A DNA stretch of 64,000 nt from Bacteroides pyogenes DSM 20611 = JCM 6294 (GTDB lineage: Bacteria > Bacteroidota > Bacteroidia > Bacteroidales > Bacteroidaceae), in NCBI RefSeq assembly GCF_000428105.1, contig NZ_ATZH01000009.1, forward strand, positions 1-64,000, read 5' to 3'. A program made the position numbers and the translations under genes. Positions 4,773 through 62,100 of this stretch are shown one piece after another. Position 1 is the stretch's first letter; each line of letters starts with the position of its first letter. The notes below the pieces were generated by a model. That model was given only the letters and a program-made list of their open reading frames with translations. It ran no database searches and was not told where the DNA came from.

Positions 4773-4857
4773 AGGAATTTCGCACGAAACGGATAATATG
4801 TATCGCAATTTATTGCAGAAGGCGGGAGCGAGCATTGCAGAAGCAGTCATCGTACAG

Positions 4858-5026
4858 GGTATATACCCCCCTCGTGGTGAACATATATATCCACCGTGGT
4901 GAGTATATATACTCATCCCCCATGACTATATATGGCTACCACGCTGAGTATATATGGCTACCACCCATGACTATATATGCTCATCACCCATGACCATATA
5001 TGTATCCGACACACGCCCATATATAC
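4858..5026. repeat. 22-23 bp TATATA palindromic repeat array (locus A)
   Basis: Eight degenerate units have TATATA cores beginning near 4860, 4884, 4904, 4927, 4949, 4972, 4996 and 5019, spaced 20-24 bp. A typical unit is TATATATGGCTACCACCCA (4949-4967). The minus strand of 4956-4979 matches 35568-35591 of locus C exactly over 24 bp. The array fills the space between the divergent ruvB and nucleoside-gate promoters. There is no unique spacer sequence between units, so this is not CRISPR. I do not recognise the family. Confidence 0.85.
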
Positions 5027-6864: not shown

Positions 6865-7000
6865 ATAAGACAAGCCCCTACTATTATAAAGCGAAACAGT
6901 GAAAACGACATAAAAGAGCGCCAGAATCTTTATCGACAAACCTTTACTATTATAAAACGGAACGCTGCCAAAGGATATAAAGTTCTTTCCCCTTCAGACT
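6865..7000. repeat. Degenerate tandem duplication, 66-bp period
   Basis: The word ACTATTATAAA begins at 6880 and again at 6946, exactly 66 bp apart. The match extends, with substitutions, from GACAA upstream to ATAAA downstream in both copies. It lies just after ybeY and is non-coding. Confidence 0.6.
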
Positions 7001-10202: not shown

Positions 10203-10343
10203 CCGAAAGAAAGGAAGCGCCCGCCGGGGAGAAAGAATCGTCACACAAAGACAATCCGGCGGGTACGAGATGCGCATCGGACCGAATATCCGGACAGAAA
10301 GAACGCCCACAAACCATCTTTCCGTTCACTCCCTTCTCTCCTC
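10203..10343. other. Spacer between apt and the 66-bp repeats
   Basis: This is the first part of a 460-bp gene-free gap between apt and uvrC. No feature was identified before the repeat block begins. Confidence 0.4.
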
Positions 10344-10628
10344 TTTGCTTTCATCTATGCAACAAGAGCAACCTAACGGTAAGTTCATGACAAACGCACT
10401 TATCCCAACTTTGCCTTCATCTATGCAACAAGAACAACTATGTAAACAAAGACCTGACGGTAAAAGTAAACGCCCTTTGCTTCCATTTATGCAACAAGAG
10501 CAACCTAACGGTAAGTTCATGACAAACGCACTTATCCCAACTTTGCTTTCATCTATGCAACAAGAGCGACGAGCCGGCTTTGGCAATGAGGCGTACTGTT
10601 TCTTTTCTTTTATCCATACGACAAGAGC
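10344..10628. repeat. 66-bp tandem repeat between apt and uvrC
   Basis: Units begin at 10344, 10410, 10476 and 10542, exactly 66 bp apart, each opening with a variant of TTTGCTTTCATCTATGC then AACAAGAGCAACC. Copies 1 and 3 differ at about two positions. Copy 2 is diverged in its second half. Copy 4 is partial, and a fifth degenerate start lies at about 10602. Because 66 is a multiple of 3, a cysteine-rich frame stays open across it, but no gene is supported. Confidence 0.9.
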
Positions 10629-12528: not shown

Positions 12529-12633
12529 GAAGAGTATCGGCCGGAGTCAGTCATGCTCAGAAATAAGCCGAAAAAGTCGTGCCAGAAACCTTAAACCGTA
12601 CAGCCGAGACATTAAACCACAGGTTTTCATTCA

Positions 12634-12721
12634 GTTTCCCACTATTGAAACAAAAGTTTCCCACTGGGGAAACTTTATTTTCCCTTCGGGGAAACTTTTG
12701 TTTCCCCAGTGGGAAACAAAG
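12634..12721. repeat. Four-copy 22-bp palindromic array after uvrC
   Basis: Four units of exactly 22 bp begin at 12634, 12656, 12678 and 12700. Each is a GTTTCCC-loop-GGGAAAC palindrome (first and third imperfect) plus a 4-nt A/T spacer. Unit 2 (GTTTCCCACTGGGGAAAC, 12656-12673) is the exact reverse complement of unit 4 (12700-12717). Unit 3 contains TTTCCC-TTCG-GGGAAA, a stem with a UUCG tetraloop. As RNA it could fold as nested hairpins and might terminate uvrC transcription. Confidence 0.9.
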
Positions 12722-12727
12722 CGAAAT

Positions 12728-12930
12728 CTATATGCCTGCGACGCTACGCCTATATGCCTACGCCCTATACCGCCCGGCGTATGTGCTATATGTTCCGGCG
12801 TAGTATGCCCCATATATACCCGCCGTATATCCATATATTCCGGCGTATATCTTGTACGTCCCGGTGATGTCTTGTATGTCCCGGCGTATGCGCGCTATAC
12901 CCCCTCCGTATCGCTATACGCCCCGTCAGA
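12728..12930. repeat. Degenerate ~21-bp array, CTATATG-CCGGCGTAT type
   Basis: About ten units begin near 12728, 12750, 12765, 12786, 12811, 12832, 12851, 12871, 12895 and 12913. A consensus is close to CTATATGTCCCGGCGTATG, itself partly palindromic. Spacing is 15-25 bp and mostly 20-22. It follows the GTTTCCC array directly. The layout recalls the TATATA arrays at loci A, C and D, but the monomer differs. Confidence 0.7.
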
Positions 12931-13102
12931 TACTCCCTGTGCTTACGGCCCATTTCCCTCGTTATGGCGGGTGCCCTGCGTCTGCTTTCAACGCATCCCA
13001 CCCATACAGGCGTTTTTTTCGGAAGCCATGCCCCTTTCGGAGAGCGTGGCTTTTCACCGGAAGGAAAGCGATGAGACACCACGCCCGAATCAACAAACCG
13101 CC

Positions 13103-13197
13103 CTTGCATCCACCATTTATACCCGCGTACTCCAAAACCGAGAGGGACGTCCGCCGCGCGCTAGGCCTTGCATCGGTCATTTATACCCGCGTACCCA
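13103..13197. repeat. Direct repeat with 64-bp period
   Basis: A 30-bp segment beginning CTTGCATC and containing CATTTATACCCGCGTAC occurs at 13103 and again at 13167, with about four mismatches. The offset is 64 bp, close to the other 64-71 bp repeats in this window. Confidence 0.75.
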
Positions 13198-13279: not shown

Positions 13280-13426
13280 CGAAAGAAGAAAAGAGCGGCA
13301 CGCGGAAACAACAGCCGCCACCGCATCTTTTCAACCGCCGGAACGAAACAGTTTTCCGGCAAAACACGGGCAAGGCTCACCGGCCGACAAGCCCGAAGTG
13401 GCATGACGCCGACATTGTGAAAGCTC

Positions 13427-13731
13427 AAAGCCCCGGCGAACAAGCGAAAGCTGCAAGGTCGAACAGAAGAAAGCCCCGGCGAACAAGCCAAAGTTGCAAG
13501 GTCGAACGGAAGAAAGCCCAAGTTGAACGAGCCAAAGCTGCAAAGCCGAATGGAACAAAGCTCAAGCCGAACAAGCCAAAGCAGCAAGACCGAACGGAAG
13601 AAAGCCCAAGCCAAATGAGCCAAAGCTGCAAGACCGAACAGAACAAAGCTCAAGCGAACGAGCCAAAGCTGCAAGACCGAACGGAACAAAACCCAAGCCG
13701 AACAAGCCAAAGCTGCAAGGCCGAACGGGAC
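13427..13731. repeat. Seven-copy 43-44 bp repeat, built of ~22-bp half-units
   Basis: Copies begin at 13427, 13470, 13513, 13557, 13601, 13645 and 13688. Each copy is two related half-units, AAAGCCCAAGCCGAACAAGCC and AAAGCTGCAAGACCGAAC plus five bases, so the basic period is about 22 bp. The 44-bp unit is not a multiple of 3 and copies vary by 1 bp, so frames crossing it are not conserved coding sequence. It lies immediately upstream of the response regulator gene. Confidence 0.85.
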
Positions 13732-13813
13732 AAAACATTGAGAACCAACGGATTTAAAGCTGCTGAAGGGAGTTAGAGCATAACAGATATTACAGAAACT
13801 TAAACCCGAAGAA

Positions 13814-15875: not shown

Positions 15876-16322
15876 ATGAAAAGAATTATTCTATTGGCCA
15901 TTACCGCTTTAACTATGACATTTACTTTCACAGCCAAAGCCGACAACTCAAAACCCGTACGCTTTGAAAACCTGCCCGAAAATTCGCAGAAATTCGTCCA
16001 TACCCACTTTAAAGGGACCGAGATATCGTACATAAAACAGGAAAGCGACTTCTTCTTATGGAAGTCATACGATCTCTTCTTCGTCAACGGAAGCAAAATA
16101 GAGTTCGACCGGAAAGGAAATTGGGAAGAAGTAGACTGTATGAGAGACGAGGTTCCCGCCGCTATCGTACCCGCCGCCATCACGACCTACATAAACCGGA
16201 ACCATGCCGGAATGAAAATCGTGAAAATCAGCCGGAACAGCAAAGAGTATGAGGTGAAACTGAACAATGGCATAGAAATCAAGTTCGACAAGAAGTTTAA
16301 TGTGATAGAATATGATAATTAA
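15876..16322 (+). CDS. Secreted PepSY-like domain protein
   Basis: This 148-residue protein has a cleavable signal peptide (RIILLAITALTMTFTFTAKA) and then a PepSY-like region (the DUF2874/PF11396 type). Repeated short motifs include PENSQKFVHTHFKG, a segment ending GSKIEFDRKGNWEEVDC, and NNGIEIKFDKKFNVIEYDN at the C-terminus. The motif 'G x x I x F D x x x x x x E' occurs twice, once per PepSY-like half. Such proteins are periplasmic in Bacteroides, and their ligands are unknown. It lies 95 bp after the kinase, and its 3' end is partly duplicated 65 bp downstream. Confidence 0.8.
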   Translation: MKRIILLAITALTMTFTFTAKADNSKPVRFENLPENSQKFVHTHFKGTEISYIKQESDFFLWKSYDLFFVNGSKIEFDRKGNWEEVDCMRDEVPAAIVPAAITTYINRNHAGMKIVKISRNSKEYEVKLNNGIEIKFDKKFNVIEYDN

Positions 16323-16389
16323 CCAACCGGCACACAGCCGAATCGGTTACCACGTCATCGCTTAACGTGATAGAATATGATAATTAACC
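16302..16389. repeat. 23-bp direct repeat with 65-bp offset
   Basis: The 3' end of the PepSY-like gene plus its stop (16302-16324, GTGATAGAATATGATAAT and 5 more bases) recurs exactly at 16367-16389 in the gap before the next gene. The offset is 65 bp, and the second copy is outside any gene. Confidence 0.9.
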
Positions 16390-17252: not shown

Positions 17253-17370
17253 AAGCCATGAACGGCTGGTTAATACACCACTTCATGCAGTAGAGAACCT
17301 GCGTGTATAAAGAAATATGGGAAGTACCGTTTCAACCCGCCGCAAGCCGGGGGGGGCAGAGCGGTACTTT

Positions 17371-17578
17371 CTTTTCATTTAAAGCCAATCACCGGAAGCA
17401 ATGCGTTGTTTGCGGTGCAGTAAAAGCAGTATTCTCTTTCCATTTAAAGCCAATCACCGGAAGCAATGCGTTGTTTGGTTGCAGTAAAAGCAGTATTCTC
17501 TTTCCATCTAAAGCCAATCACCGGAAGCAATGCGCTGTTTGGTTGCAGTAAAAGCAGCATTCTCTTTCCACTTAAAGA
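17371..17578. repeat. 64-65 bp tandem repeat upstream of dtd
   Basis: The word AAAGCCAATCACCGGAAGC begins at 17381, 17446 and 17510, and a truncated copy (AAAG) at 17574, giving offsets of 65, 64 and 64 bp. Units continue with AATGCGTTGTTTGG and CAGTAAAAGCAGTATTCTC. Eight consecutive G residues (17349-17356) lie just before. The block is non-coding and sits between the PepSY lipoprotein and the dtd promoter. Confidence 0.9.
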
Positions 17579-35499: not shown

Positions 35500-35522
35500 C
35501 GTTTAATATCCCTCGCGCTGAG

Positions 35523-35650
35523 CATATATAGTCATGGGTGGTAGACATATATAGTCACCGTGGTAGGCATATATAGTCATGGGTGGTAGCCATATATGGC
35601 TACCGAGGTAGCTATATATACTCACCACGCTGGGCATATATACTCATCTC
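35523..35650. repeat. 22-23 bp TATATA palindromic repeat array (locus C)
   Basis: Six units with CATATATA-type starts at 35523, 35546, 35568, 35591, 35612 and 35635 (offsets 23, 22, 23, 21, 23). A unit reads CATATATAGTCATGGGTGG followed by TAGC. Bases 35585-35604 (GGTAGCCATATATGGCTACC) form a perfect 20-bp palindrome. Bases 35568-35591 match locus A (4956-4979, opposite strand) exactly. It lies 24 bp after the ATPase gene stop. Confidence 0.9.
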
Positions 35651-35917
35651 ATTGCAATAAAAAGTACCCTTCGGAATAAGATTTTGCCGACATAGACACC
35701 ATAATCAAACGGGCTCTTTTCTCTCTTCTTATAAAAAATGAAAGGATGATAACAAGAAAGCCATTCCGAAAGGGAACAACTTTCGGATAGGGAACTCAAT
35801 TTTCATTTCTACAACTTATGTAGAACTATGCTCTTTTATATAATTTCCTGCTACTATGTCATCGGGCAACTTAAAAATCACACCGATCAACATTTCTGTC
35901 AAAAAGAAAAAGATACT
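35651..35917. other. Gene-free spacer after array C
   Basis: AT-rich DNA between the array and the lipoprotein promoter. No gene, terminator or other structure was identified. Confidence 0.4.
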
Positions 35918-49349: not shown

Positions 49350-49582
49350 TATTGTCCGTCACCGGCGTCTTCGTAATACGGAGAAGACAGCATCGGGCGG
49401 CATCGCATATGGCAAACGGGCCTCGTTCGTTTCCGATTTCTTCGTAGCACGGAGAAAACCGATAAATGATTCGAAGCATATTCACTACTGTTCGTCCTCG
49501 ATGCTTTCGTAGGGGCTACAGCCTCAGGCGCGATAACTTCGCGCACCTCACTACTGTTCGTCCTCAATACTCTCGTAGGCGC
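49350..49582. repeat. 66-71 bp degenerate repeats extending from the agp 3' end
   Basis: The last 35 bp of the acid phosphatase gene (49548-49582, starting TCACTACTGTTCGTCC) recur at 49482-49516, 66 bp away. That copy still encodes YESIEDEQ-stop on the minus strand. Two more degenerate copies lie near 49421 and 49350, keeping the core TCGTA about 66-71 bp apart (49371, 49442, 49508, 49573). Confidence 0.8.
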
Positions 49583-51139: not shown

Positions 51140-53782
51140 CTACCTCCCCCTGACTATCTTCTTAATATCGTTCAGCTTGTTCAAAGCCTCGATGGGAGTA
51201 AGGTTGTTTACGTCGAGATTCAGTATCTCGTCGCGTATCTGGCAAAGAATGGGGTCTTCCAGTTGGAAGAAACTAAGCTGCATGCCCCCGCGATTCTCGC
51301 TTACTTCCGCCAGCGGTTTACCCGAAATGCCTTGCTGGCGACTGTCCGATTCAAGTTGCTTCAATATTTCGTCGGCACGCTTCACGATGCTTTTCGGCAT
51401 ACCCGCCATCTTTGCCACATGGATACCGAAGGAGTGCTCGCTTCCGCCCCGTTCGAGCTTGCGAAGGAAAATCACCCTGTTATCCACTTCTTTCACCGAC
51501 ACATTGTAGTTCTTAATCCGCTTGAACGACTTTTCCATTTCGTTCAGCTCGTGGTAGTGCGTGGCAAACAACGTACGCGCTTTGGCTTTGGGATGCTCGT
51601 GAATATATTCCACAATAGCCCACGCTATGGAGATTCCGTCGTAAGTGGAAGTTCCGCGTCCAAGCTCGTCGAACAGCACCAAGCTACGTGTAGAAATATT
51701 GTTCAGTATATCCGCCGCTTCGTTCATCTCCACCATAAATGTAGATTCTCCCACCGAAATGTTATCGCTCGCACCCACACGGGTAAATATCTTATCCACC
51801 AATCCGATACGCGCGCTCTCTGCCGGAACGAACGAACCTATCTGAGCAAGCAACGTGATTAAGGCGGTCTGTCGCAGAAGCGCCGACTTACCTGCCATGT
51901 TCGGACCGGTGATGATAATGATCTGTTGCGTACTGCTATCAAGCATCACATCATTGGCTATATACTTTTCTCCTATCGGCAGCTGCTTTTCAATCACCGG
52001 ATGGCGTCCCTGACGAATATCGAGCACATCACTGTCTTCAATCACCGGACGAATGTAATGGTTCTCACGCGCCACATTGGCGAACGAAAGCAAGCAGTCG
52101 ATACGCGCTATTTGATTGGCATTAATCTGTATCTGTGGAATAAATTCCGCCAAAGCCTGTACCAGATCGGCATACAACCGCGTTTCCAACGCCATGATTT
52201 TGTCTTCCGCCCCGAGAATCTTTTCTTCATACTCCTTCAGCTCCTGCGTAATATAGCGTTCGGCATTCACCAACGTCTGCTTGCGTATCCATTCCTGCGG
52301 CACCTTATCCTTATGCCCGTTGCGCACTTCGATGTAATAACCGAATACATTGTTGTAAGCCACCTTCAGGCTCGGTATTCCCGTCTGTTCGCTTTCTCTC
52401 TGTTGAATCTGAAGCAAGTAATCCTTTCCCGAATACGAAATCCGACGCAGTTCGTCGAGCTCGGCATTCACGCCGTCCTTTATCACTCCGCCTTTATTTA
52501 TCAATAGGGGAGGGTCGTTCTGAACCTCCTTGTCTATCCGGTCGCGAATGGAAACGCAAAGGTTCAGTTGCTCGCCGATGCGGTTTAGGCTCGCATTATC
52601 GGCTTCGAGACAAGCCTGCTTGATGGGTTGGATGGCCTGCAAAGCCACCTTCAACTGCACGACTTCGCGAGGAGAAACCCTGCCTACGGCAACCTTCGAA
52701 ACGATGCGCTCCAAATCGCCGATGAGATGCAACTGCTCTTCAATAAGCTCCTTGAAGTCGGGCTGCCTGAAGAAGTATTCCACCACATTCAGGCGGTCGT
52801 TGATGGGACGCTCGTCTTTCAGCGGAAACACCATCCAACGCTTGAGCAGGCGGGCTCCCATCGGACTGATTGTACGGTCGACCACATCTATCAGACTGCT
52901 TCCCCCGTCGTTCATGCTGCCTATGAGTTCGAGGCTGCGAACGGTAAACTTATCCAACCGAACGTACTTTTCCTCTTCGATGCGTGCCAGCGAAGTGATG
53001 TGCCCTATTTGCGTATGTTGCGTCATGGTGAGGTATTGCAGAATAGCACCCGATGCGATAATACCGTTTTTGAGATGCTCCACGCCAAACCCTTTCAGAT
53101 TCTTGGTTTCGAAATGCTTCAGCAATTTCTCACGCGCCGAACTGTCGGTAAACACCCAATCGTCGAGTTCGAAAGTAAAGAATTTGCTGCCGAAGTTTCC
53201 CTCGAACATCCCTCTTCTTCCGCGTTCGAAAAGCACCTCTTTGGGCGCGAAGTTATTAAGCAGCTTGTCTACATAATCAAACGGTCCCTCAGCCGTGAGA
53301 AACTCGCCGGTAGATATATCGAGAAAAGCTACTCCGCAACTCCCTTTGCCGAAGTGAACCGCAGCAAGAAAGTTGTTCTCCTTGTAATTCAGCACATTGT
53401 CATTGATAGATACCCCGGGCGTAACCAGCTCCGTGATGCCCCGCTTCACGAGCTTCTTGGTAAGTTTAGGGTCTTCCAACTGATCGCAAATGGCAACGCG
53501 CTTACCGGCGCGAACCAATTTAGGCAAATAAGTATCGAGCGCATGATGAGGAAATCCCGCCATCTCGATGGTTTTCTCTTTTCCATTGGCGCGCTTGGTC
53601 AGGGTAATTCCTAGTATTTCGGATGAAATGATGGCATCTGTAGAATAAGTTTCGTAAAAATCGCCGCAACGAAACAGCATCACTGCATCCGGATGTTTGG
53701 CTTTCAAATCCAGAAATTGCTTCATCATGGGCGTGAGGACAATATCTTTATCATTCACTGTAATTTCTTTCTCTTTTCTCAT
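51140..53782 (-). CDS. mutS: DNA mismatch repair protein MutS
   Basis: MutS recognises mismatches and small loops and starts repair with MutL. From the ATG at 53782 it is 880 residues, a normal length. It has the mismatch-wedge motif [15 protein letters not shown], the connector and lever domains, and the ATPase with Walker [34 protein letters not shown], Walker [21 protein letters not shown] and LFATHYHEL. The upstream frame to 53839 is rejected because the -7 element lies inside it. Repeat-rich regions in this window would be direct substrates for MutS, but no link is shown. miaB lies upstream on the same strand, separated by a small RNA candidate. Confidence 0.97.
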
Positions 53783-58494: not shown

Positions 58495-58740
58495 TGCGGG
58501 ATGCGGCGTACTAGGAAGCTGTGATTCGTAGTACTGTTGCATGTTTCGCTTCTGCATGAAATCTATTCGGAGATGCATCATAAATCGATCATGGAACCTT
58601 TGCGGGTATTTTATTCGTACGTCTCTTTGTCAAAGAGCGATTCCGAATCAAAAATCCCAGAGAGTTTCTCCGGTTTTTGATGCATCCTTTTTTTACCCTT
58701 TTTCTCCCAATTTTGTTCAATAGCAATTCATCACACAATT

Positions 58741-58850
58741 CATATATACTCACCGTGGTAACTATATAGAGCTACCGCGGTGGCTATATAGAGCTACCAC
58801 ACTGGGCATATATATCCACCGTGCTGAATATATATGTCTACCACCCACAT
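58741..58850. repeat. 22-bp TATATA palindromic repeat array (locus D)
   Basis: Five units begin near 58741, 58762, 58784, 58807 and 58829 (offsets 21-23). Bases 58829-58847 (TATATATGTCTACCACCCA) match locus A 4949-4967 at 18 of 19 positions. Bases 58741-58760 match locus C 35546-35565 at 19 of 20. It lies between the CoA-transferase gene and the susC promoter. Confidence 0.85.
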
Positions 58851-59134: not shown

Positions 59135-62100
59135 ATGAGAAACACGCTTAATTTAAGATTCAGCTTTCTTATCGCGTTTCTTTTGTTCATGCCCATGATG
59201 ATTCATGCCTTTCCTCCGGAAGGCATAACAATCAGAGGCAGGGTGACAGACGAAGCGTTGAAAGAAGCCGTTCCCGGAGCTAACGTAACTGTGAAGGGTA
59301 CCACCATCGGAACAATCACCGGTTTCGACGGAACTTACAGCATTGTGGTTCCGAGTAAAAAATCGGTATTGGTCTTTTCGTTCATGGGCTATGTCACTCA
59401 GGAAATTACAGTGGGAGACAAAAGAACAATCGATGTCAGTTTGAAGGAAGACGCGAATGTGCTCGGAGAGGTGGAAGTCGTTGCTATCGCATACGGTAAT
59501 CAGGATAAAAACCTGCTTACAAGCGCCGTATCTTCCATCAGTAACAAAGAGCTGATAAAATCGCCGGTGGCAAGTGTCACCAATGTGCTGGCGGGAGCCA
59601 TGCCCGGTGTTTCGTCGGTGCAGACCAGCGGACAGCCCGGAAAGGATGCCGCAGCTATCTATGTACGCGGTTCGGGCTCGCTGAATGATTCGCAATCCAA
59701 ACCGTTGATACTGGTAGATGGTGTAGAACGCGAGTTTTCTCAAATCGACCCGAATGAGATTGAAAGCATCTCTATCTTGAAAGATGCCTCTTCTACAGCC
59801 GTATTTGGTGTGCGGGGAGCCAACGGCGTGGTTCTGGTGACCACCCGGCGGGGAAAGAGCGGCAAACCGCAAATCAATGTAAGCACGTCGCTGGGCTTGC
59901 AACAGCCTATCTCGCTCGTAGAGCAGACCGGAAGCTATGAGTTTGCCCGTTTCTGGAACATCAAGCAGCAACTCGACGGAGTGGCAGACAAGAAGCGTTA
60001 TTTTACTCCCGAGCAGGTAGAGGCTTATCGCACCGGTTCGGATCCCATTATGTACCCCAGCATGGACTGGAAGAAGTATATCTTCCACGATGTGTATCTA
60101 CAGAGCAAGAACAACATCAACATATCGGGCGGAAGTGAGGATGTAAAGTATTTCATCTCTATCGGTTACCTCTACCAGAATGGACTTTTAAAAGATCTTC
60201 CCGGACAGAAGTACAACAACAACTATCGTTACGACCGTTATAATTATCGTGCCAATATCGACGCCAAGCTGACAAAAACTACGACCATGAAGTTGGGTAT
60301 CGGCGGTAATCTGGGTAAAACGCAAGAGCCTCGCAGCGTGGTATCCGACACAGGACAAGACCAGAACCCGTGGGTTATCGCACAGATATGGTCGCATCCG
60401 TTTGCCGGACCGGGATTTATAGACGGGGTGCGCACGCTGGTTCCGAAAGATCTTGTTCCGCTTGGCGAGGTTCTTCGCGACGGTATGTTCGTCTTCTACG
60501 GAAAGGGCTATACGCAAAATTATCGTACCAATTTGAATTTGGATTTGGACATTACTCAAAAAATGGACTTCCTGACGAAGGGCCTGAGCGTTTCCGTAAA
60601 AGGAGCGTACGACAATGCCTTCAAACTGTTTAAAAAGCGTCCGGGCGGTGATGTGGAGAGCCAAACCGTTTATTATAAGTCGTATTTCGACTCCAACGGC
60701 AATATGCCTGCCACCGATCCGGACTATGATAAGTCGTTGATTTATCTGCCTTCCGGCAGCGACACACCGCTGGGCTACGCCGAAGAGCGGGGACGCGACC
60801 AGAACTGGTATATAGAAGGGCGTGTGAACTACGAACGCGCTTTCGGGAACCACAAAGTTTCCGGGCTTTTGCTGTATAATCAGTCACGCGATTACTACCC
60901 CGACGCATATACCTATATTCCCAGAAGCTATATCGGTTTTGTCGGCCGGGCTACTTACAGCTACTTGAGTAAATACCTGTTCGATGTAAACGTGGGTTAC
61001 AACGGATCTGAAAACTTCGCTCCCGGAAAGAACCGTTTCGGGATTTTTCCCGCATTCTCCGCCGGATGGGTGGCAAGCGCGGAGAAGTTCATGGCCAACC
61101 AGCATGTGGTGGATTATCTGAAACTAAGACTCTCGTGGGGACGCGTGGGCAGCGATAAAGGCATCGACTCCCGCTTCATGTATATGCCTGCCGTTTGGCA
61201 ACAGTCGGGCGGATACAGCTTCGGAGTGAATACACCCGAAAATGCTCCCGCTTTTGGAATCACTAAAATAGGTAATCCGCATGTGACTTGGGAAACCGCC
61301 GACAAGCAGAATTACGGTATAGACGTTAAGTTTCTCGACAATCGCTTGTCGCTCAATTTCGACTATTTCATGGAGCGCCGTACGGGGATTCTCATCACTC
61401 CCGAATCCACTCCTGCCATCATCGCCACTTCCTTACCCAACTCAAATATAGGTAAAGTGAATAATCACGGTTACGAAGTGGCTCTCGGATGGAACGACGC
61501 GATAGGAAAGGATTTCAATTATTACATGAACGCCAATGTGTCTTTTGCGCGCAATAAAATCATTTACCGCGACGAAGTACCCAAGCAGTTCGACTATATG
61601 AATGTGACGGGAGGATCCACCGGACGCCAGACCAATGTATATAAATATATCCGCCTTTACCAGCAGGACGACTTTATAAAGGATGCAGAAGGCGGGCTGA
61701 CCTTGAAACCCGAACTTCCACAGCCGTACCAGAAGGTATATCCGGGTGACGCGATGTATGCCGACCTCAACGGAGACAACATTGTGGATGGGAAAGACAG
61801 GTGTGTGGCAGGATACGCTACCCGCCCCGAATATACATTCGGTTTGAACATGGGATGCAACTGGAAGGGATTCAGTTTCTCCATGCAATGGGCGGGCGCC
61901 ACCAACGTCAGCCGGATGTACGATATCGAATATCGTATTCCGTTCACTAACGCCGGCAAGCGCGGTTTGCTGACTTACTTCTACAATGATTGCTGGACTC
62001 CCGAAAACCAATTGGGAGCTGTTTATCCGCGTCCGGCAGAAGAATCGGAAAGCTGGAACTCCGAGCCTTCTACCTTATGGTTACAGGATGCTTCTTATCT

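Follow-up and report, generated by a model that had tools for sequence, protein, structure and literature searches.

Repeat-spacer-repeat loci with a 65-bp period in a Bacteroides genome, a probable footprint of off-target CRISPR spacer integration

Repeat loci of the window

The window analysed here is 64 kb long and forms the start of contig C5 in a Bacteroides draft genome of 3.43 Mb (hereafter G000). Between apt and uvrC lies a small array in which a 30-bp repeat (R) alternates with 36-bp spacers (S), and repeat-spacer-repeat (R-S-R) units of similar size occur elsewhere in the window. An earlier note on this DNA had listed seven loci with a nearly constant repeat offset, and six of them indeed hold direct repeats at 64-66 bp. 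These are the pairs 6869/6935 (66 bp), 13102/13166 (64 bp), 16297/16362 (65 bp), and 49482/49548 (66 bp), and the arrays 10343/10409/10475/10541 (66, 66, and 66 bp) and 17351-17577 (65, 64, and 64 bp). The seventh, 27775/27842, proved to be of a different kind, namely a low-complexity 17-bp repeat. The entry at 49371 needed correction: the two copies there, about 71 bp apart, are merely a diverged pair, and the well-formed pair is the one at 49482/49548. The features of the window are as follows.

6869..6963, + strand: older R-S-R; R 6869-6897, S 6898-6934 (37 bp), R 6935-6963; repeats 83% identical
10343..10570, + strand: neo-CRISPR-like array between apt and uvrC; four 30-bp R (10343-10372, 10409-10438, 10475-10504, 10541-10570) and three 36-bp S (S2 10373-10408, S1 10439-10474, S2 10505-10540)
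13102..13194, + strand: R-S-R; R 13102-13130, S 13131-13165 (35 bp), R 13166-13194
16297..16389, + strand: R-S-R directly upstream of a PepSY-like gene; R 16297-16324, S 16325-16361, R 16362-16389
17360..17577, + strand: tandem array of 64-65 bp units, about 3.3 copies
49482..49579, + strand: R-S-R; R 49482-49513, S 49514-49547 (34 bp), R 49548-49579
53196..53235, - strand: chromosomal match inside mutS, 40/40 to a spacer of the native type I-B array
59229..59267, + strand: donor, a 39-bp segment of a TonB-dependent receptor gene with a 100% copy in the R-S-R at G000:C1:199883

Each 65-bp locus consists of a local sequence doubled around a foreign segment. The repeats differ from locus to locus, as the earlier note had held, and no common repeat is available for crRNA processing. 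The membership of the 17360 array is uncertain; it is possibly an expanded derivative of an R-S-R. No spacer source was detected for it, and the sister species has more copies at this site, with an assembly gap there.

The 63-68 bp peak and the 22-bp minisatellites

We scanned 2.06 Mb of G000, read in stretches (about 60% of the sequence), for isolated pairs, defined as repeats of 22-40 bp after the exclusion of short-period arrays (any period of 12-48 bp removed). At offsets of 63-68 bp there were 41 noncoding isolated pairs. All other 6-bp bins between 51 and 296 bp held 0-2 pairs each, except for 7 pairs at 129-134 bp, which corresponds to two units. A Markov-shuffled control of 863 kb yielded 2 repeats over all offsets, versus 256 in the real sequence. 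The near-constant period of about 65 bp is thus real and genome-wide. It is also found in G034, the genome of a sister species that is about 95% identical to G000 in nucleotide sequence, with 15 isolated pairs in the 0.30 Mb scanned. In an identical scan of 80 loci from other Bacteroidales (1.54 Mb), there were 2 such pairs.

The earlier note had proposed a comparison of period sizes with shuffled sequence, expecting peaks at both 64-67 and 22 bp. The former is sharp; the latter is also present but represents a separate phenomenon. Raw offset spectra peak at 22, 44, 65-66, 88, and 132 bp, and the peaks at 22, 44, and 88 bp derive from minisatellite arrays, many of them in interspersed families. 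Other Bacteroidales, in the 1.54 Mb scanned, show these peaks about as strongly. As a minisatellite feature, the 22-bp period belongs to Bacteroidales as a whole. It sits at other loci, and in relatives without 65-bp pairs, so the reading of 65 bp as three times 22 does not hold, and the agreement with 66 is a coincidence. No 22-bp sub-periods were visible by eye within the 64-66 bp units.

One could nevertheless regard the pairs as higher-order repeats of decayed 22-bp minisatellites, as the raw peaks at 22, 44, 66, 88, and 132 bp would invite. We consider this extremely improbable: R-S-R loci chosen without any 12-48 bp period still peak at 63-68 bp, and the relatives show the 22- and 44-bp peaks but only the two isolated pairs mentioned above. 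Some of the 44- and 88-bp arrays may have such a higher-order origin.

The minisatellites are themselves prominent in the window. An interspersed family of 22-23 bp units (ATATATACTCACCGCGGTAGC-like) occurs at 4852-5002, 12728-12764, 35522-35664, and 58733-58844, and at many other intergenic sites. A 44-bp tandem array at 13426-13736 differs in copy number from the sister species. Directly after uvrC, at 12625-12726, lie tandem palindromic 22-bp TTTCCC...GGGAAA units, a family also present at loci L012, L024, L025, and L043. The BrickBuilt MITE minisatellite of Porphyromonas gingivalis (PMC4596501) is a short-unit element like these 22-bp arrays, and is unrelated to the 65-bp pairs.

Spacer donors and empty sites

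The spacers of several window loci can be traced to distant coding DNA. In the 10343 array, spacer S1 reproduces 36 bp of a TonB-dependent receptor ORF 107 kb away (G000:C5:117717-117682) with 1 mismatch; S2, when up to 3 mismatches were allowed, matched nothing else in either G000 or G034. The donor of the 13102 spacer is G000:C53:1685-1716(-), and it is also present at G034:C33:1503-1534, inside an ORF. The 16297 spacer matches coding DNA at G000:C9:19185-19220 (36 bp, 94%) and G034:C8:87346-87384. The spacer region of the older 6869 locus is found in G034 too (98%), and no source in G000 was detected for the 49482 spacer.

This pattern extends to the whole genome. Among 127 raw candidate pairs, 30 had a 25-45 bp coding match elsewhere, versus 8 of 600 noncoding and 2 of 600 coding controls (P ~1e-17). 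These 30 include a few neighbouring repeats or copies of the same locus in the sister species, leaving about 21 spacers with a clean donor elsewhere in the chromosome, 20 of them inside ORFs. Since the 13102 donor lies on contig C53, outside the sampled stretches, this count is a lower bound. The ends of the donor alignments mostly coincide with the borders between R and S.

Comparison of empty and filled sites in the two genomes reveals the doubling of the local target around a spacer-length insert. At 13102, G034 carries a single uninterrupted R without spacer and G000 a clean 64-bp insertion, the donor being present in both. The reverse is seen at G034:C2:283758 and 332700, which are filled in G034 and exist as a single R in G000. 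Meanwhile, the 16297 and 49482 loci are filled in both genomes. The coexistence of shared and genome-specific filled sites indicates that the process ran both before and after the species split. The 10343 locus reads R-S1-R in G034 versus R-S2-R-S1-R-S2-R in G000, which shows that one site can be reused. Two different spacers are likewise found at each of C6:4269 and C14:37120.

These observations bear on the earlier proposal of a shared copying mechanism with slippage of fixed length. A shared mechanism remains the natural explanation; fixed-length slippage does not, since the middle segment of about 35 bp derives from distant genes. Replication slippage of about 65 bp, or of three 22-bp units, would account for a sharp period with unrelated sequences, and some loci are indeed tandem arrays of full units. 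Slippage, however, copies adjacent DNA, and the local duplication here is limited to about 29 bp. Moreover, the insert is absent from the sister's empty site, and relatives carry 22-bp arrays without 65-bp pairs. We therefore give slippage almost no credence; for both it and the threefold 22-bp unit, spacer donors and empty sites are decisive.

The pairs could also be short orphan CRISPR arrays left by several acquired CRISPR systems. They share the R-S-R layout and differing spacers with such arrays, and Bacteroides is known to carry orphan arrays (PMC5704556). However, every repeat is a different local sequence, present as a single copy at the same place in the sister. This reading can hardly be correct, and it is ruled out for the loci with empty sites.

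Resident CRISPR systems and the origin of the loci

Genes for Cas1 are present in G000. Contig C25 encodes a type I-B operon (Cas1b, Cas2b, Cas4b, Cas7b, Cas8b, Cas3b, Cas5b, and Cas6b) adjoining an array in which a 29-bp repeat occurs 35 times, with spacers of 33-40 bp and a period of 62-69 bp (mean 64.6, n=34). Contig C11 (L043) encodes Cas9, Cas1, and Cas2; where the type II-C array belongs (L043, 1890-2950), the G000 assembly shows a run of N. In the sister species (L263), the repeats of the type II-C array measure 47 bp and its spacers 29-30 bp. A search of a phage collection with both native arrays gave no convincing match. The native I-B array also includes a self-targeting 40-bp spacer (G000:C25:2218-2257), which perfectly matches the genome's own mutS, a mismatch-repair gene, and the mutS of the sister as well.

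Young loci outside the arrays have R mostly of 28-32 bp, S of 34-39 bp, and a mean period of 65.7 bp (n=47). The geometry of this main class, 29/36, is that of the resident I-B array. A minority class, with R of about 36 bp and S of about 30 bp (C1:40802, C14:37120, C8:98493, and G034:C1:517), fits neither resident array (29/36 for I-B, 47/30 for type II-C). We rejected type II-C as its source: the spacer length fits, the repeat length of 47 bp does not.

The ends of the main-class targets carry a weak signature. When both ends of 39 targets are pooled, G occupies position +1 in 45% (z 5.4), and T occupies positions +2 to +4 in 38-49% (z 3.1, 4.1, and 2.1). An orientation-free EM score for the target ends exceeded that of all 100 random sets. 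CRISPR repeats frequently begin with GTTT, and the native I-B repeat ends are ATTT and CTTT. The G-TTT target ends thus resemble the ends of native CRISPR repeats, a weak likeness limited to the ends. Off-target integration by type II Cas1-Cas2 in vitro likewise prefers G, at sites resembling the leader-repeat junction (PMC6895254).

Based on these findings, we propose that the 64-67 bp spacing is very probably the footprint of ectopic (off-target) spacer integration by Cas1-Cas2, producing "neo-CRISPR" loci, and that the resident type I-B system is its most likely source. The agent would be Cas1-Cas2, chiefly the I-B enzyme. Cas1-Cas2 would capture pieces of about 36 bp of the cell's own chromosome, and the integrase would attack sites outside the array through staggered cuts separated by about 29-30 bp. 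Repair of the gaps would duplicate the target, resulting in R-S-R. Reuse of some sites would have created the small multi-spacer arrays (10343, C6:4269, and C14:37120), and unequal exchange perhaps expanded some arrays. As the duplicated target is no CRISPR repeat, processing into crRNA would not be expected; self-derived spacers could then persist without autoimmune cost. The arrays presumably have no immune function.

The distribution of I-B systems adds a qualification. In G034, no I-B Cas1 was found and no cas3 scored above the cut-off. Despite the absent I-B Cas1, G034 has young 29/36 pairs with identical repeats. A remnant I-B mini-array, with one perfect repeat between degenerate ones, remains on G034:C17 (L264, 1313-1461), and given this retention the loss of the I-B system in G034 is likely recent. 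The relative G026 has an intact I-B array, and the 200 kb that make up this small comparison with other I-B genomes showed no clear R-S-R, only three weak candidates, of which two share a single degenerate tandem. It follows that a I-B system alone is insufficient. A further factor is needed in this lineage, such as a less specific integrase or an altered host factor.

A mechanism unconnected with CRISPR would be another way to obtain such loci. A polymerase might switch template to a distant gene and then return to a position about 29-36 bp upstream, its step set by a ruler of nearly 65 nt; single-strand binding protein, which has a 65-nt wrapping mode, could be such a ruler. Alternatively, an integrase not yet described might be at work. 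Among loci with sources, the inserted total (64-67 bp) is less variable than spacer length (26-39 bp), as this mechanism would have it. The 36/30 class also fits it, as does the lack of a clear case in another I-B genome. So do the donors, at which no PAM was detected (EM over both flanks, P=0.5), unlike in normal Cas4-assisted adaptation. We nevertheless find it improbable: the dimensions equal those of the native I-B array, the target ends are CRISPR-like (GTTT), and the same R is reused to form multi-spacer arrays. Similarly doubtful is an undescribed PAM-less capture-and-insert process, possibly not Cas1-Cas2, that adds a fixed total of about 65 bp (gene-fragment copy plus landing-site copy) and seeds CRISPR-like arrays throughout the lineage.

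CRISPR integrases are usually regarded as strictly confined to their own array. Nivala, Shipman and Church (2018, Nat Microbiol) reportedly worked mainly with E. coli overexpressing Cas1-Cas2, with few putative natural cases. Two later papers attribute to Nivala and colleagues (2018) the non-canonical integration that creates neo-CRISPR loci (PMC11788318, PMC9456107). Those loci resemble the ones under study in their Cas1-Cas2-type insertion outside arrays, in a target duplicated around the spacer, and in sites resembling the native repeat. In contrast, the present loci number in the dozens, are natural, belong to a wild Bacteroides lineage, and have I-B dimensions and self-derived spacers; they also come with empty-site evidence from a sister species and with arrays that grew. 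What we describe is thus a known kind of locus, but its scale and host group are new, its spacers derive from the cell's own DNA, and empty sites attest it directly. No report of a natural genome with dozens of neo-CRISPR loci was found in the literature searched, most subscription papers lying outside it.

In Bacteroides, the type I-B array of B. fragilis has repeats of 29 bp and spacers of 37 bp (PMC5704556). Bacteroides I-B arrays share these repeat and spacer lengths with the ectopic loci, which differ in their locus-specific repeats, in having one to three spacers taken from own genes, and in lacking cas genes and a common leader. B. fragilis also has an orphan CRISPR of three repeats upstream of hipAB, with repeats of 24 bp and spacers of 39 bp (PMC5704556). 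Like the ectopic loci, it is tiny, intergenic, without cas genes, and has a period of about 63 bp; unlike them, it is one conserved locus in B. fragilis. An origin of this array from ectopic integration is only a suggestion.

If our proposal is true, the roughly 44 ectopic loci in 60% of the genome, with largely self-derived contents, would make the integrase a genome-wide source of 65-bp insertions. CRISPR-like arrays would be in the course of being born in nature, and orphan arrays may start in this way. The loci would also offer a natural data set for target choice by Cas1-Cas2, free of selection for immunity. CRISPR finders will flag such loci as questionable arrays.

Some insertions fall within reading frames. 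Their length is a multiple of three in 15 of 19 coding versus 24 of 61 noncoding cases (P=0.0035), an in-frame bias that is only suggestive, as several of those ORFs look spurious. A good single case is G000:C8:110777, where an in-frame 66-bp R-S-R within an ORF of 1050 aa results in a 22-aa insertion, with LLQMPTANLD duplicated.
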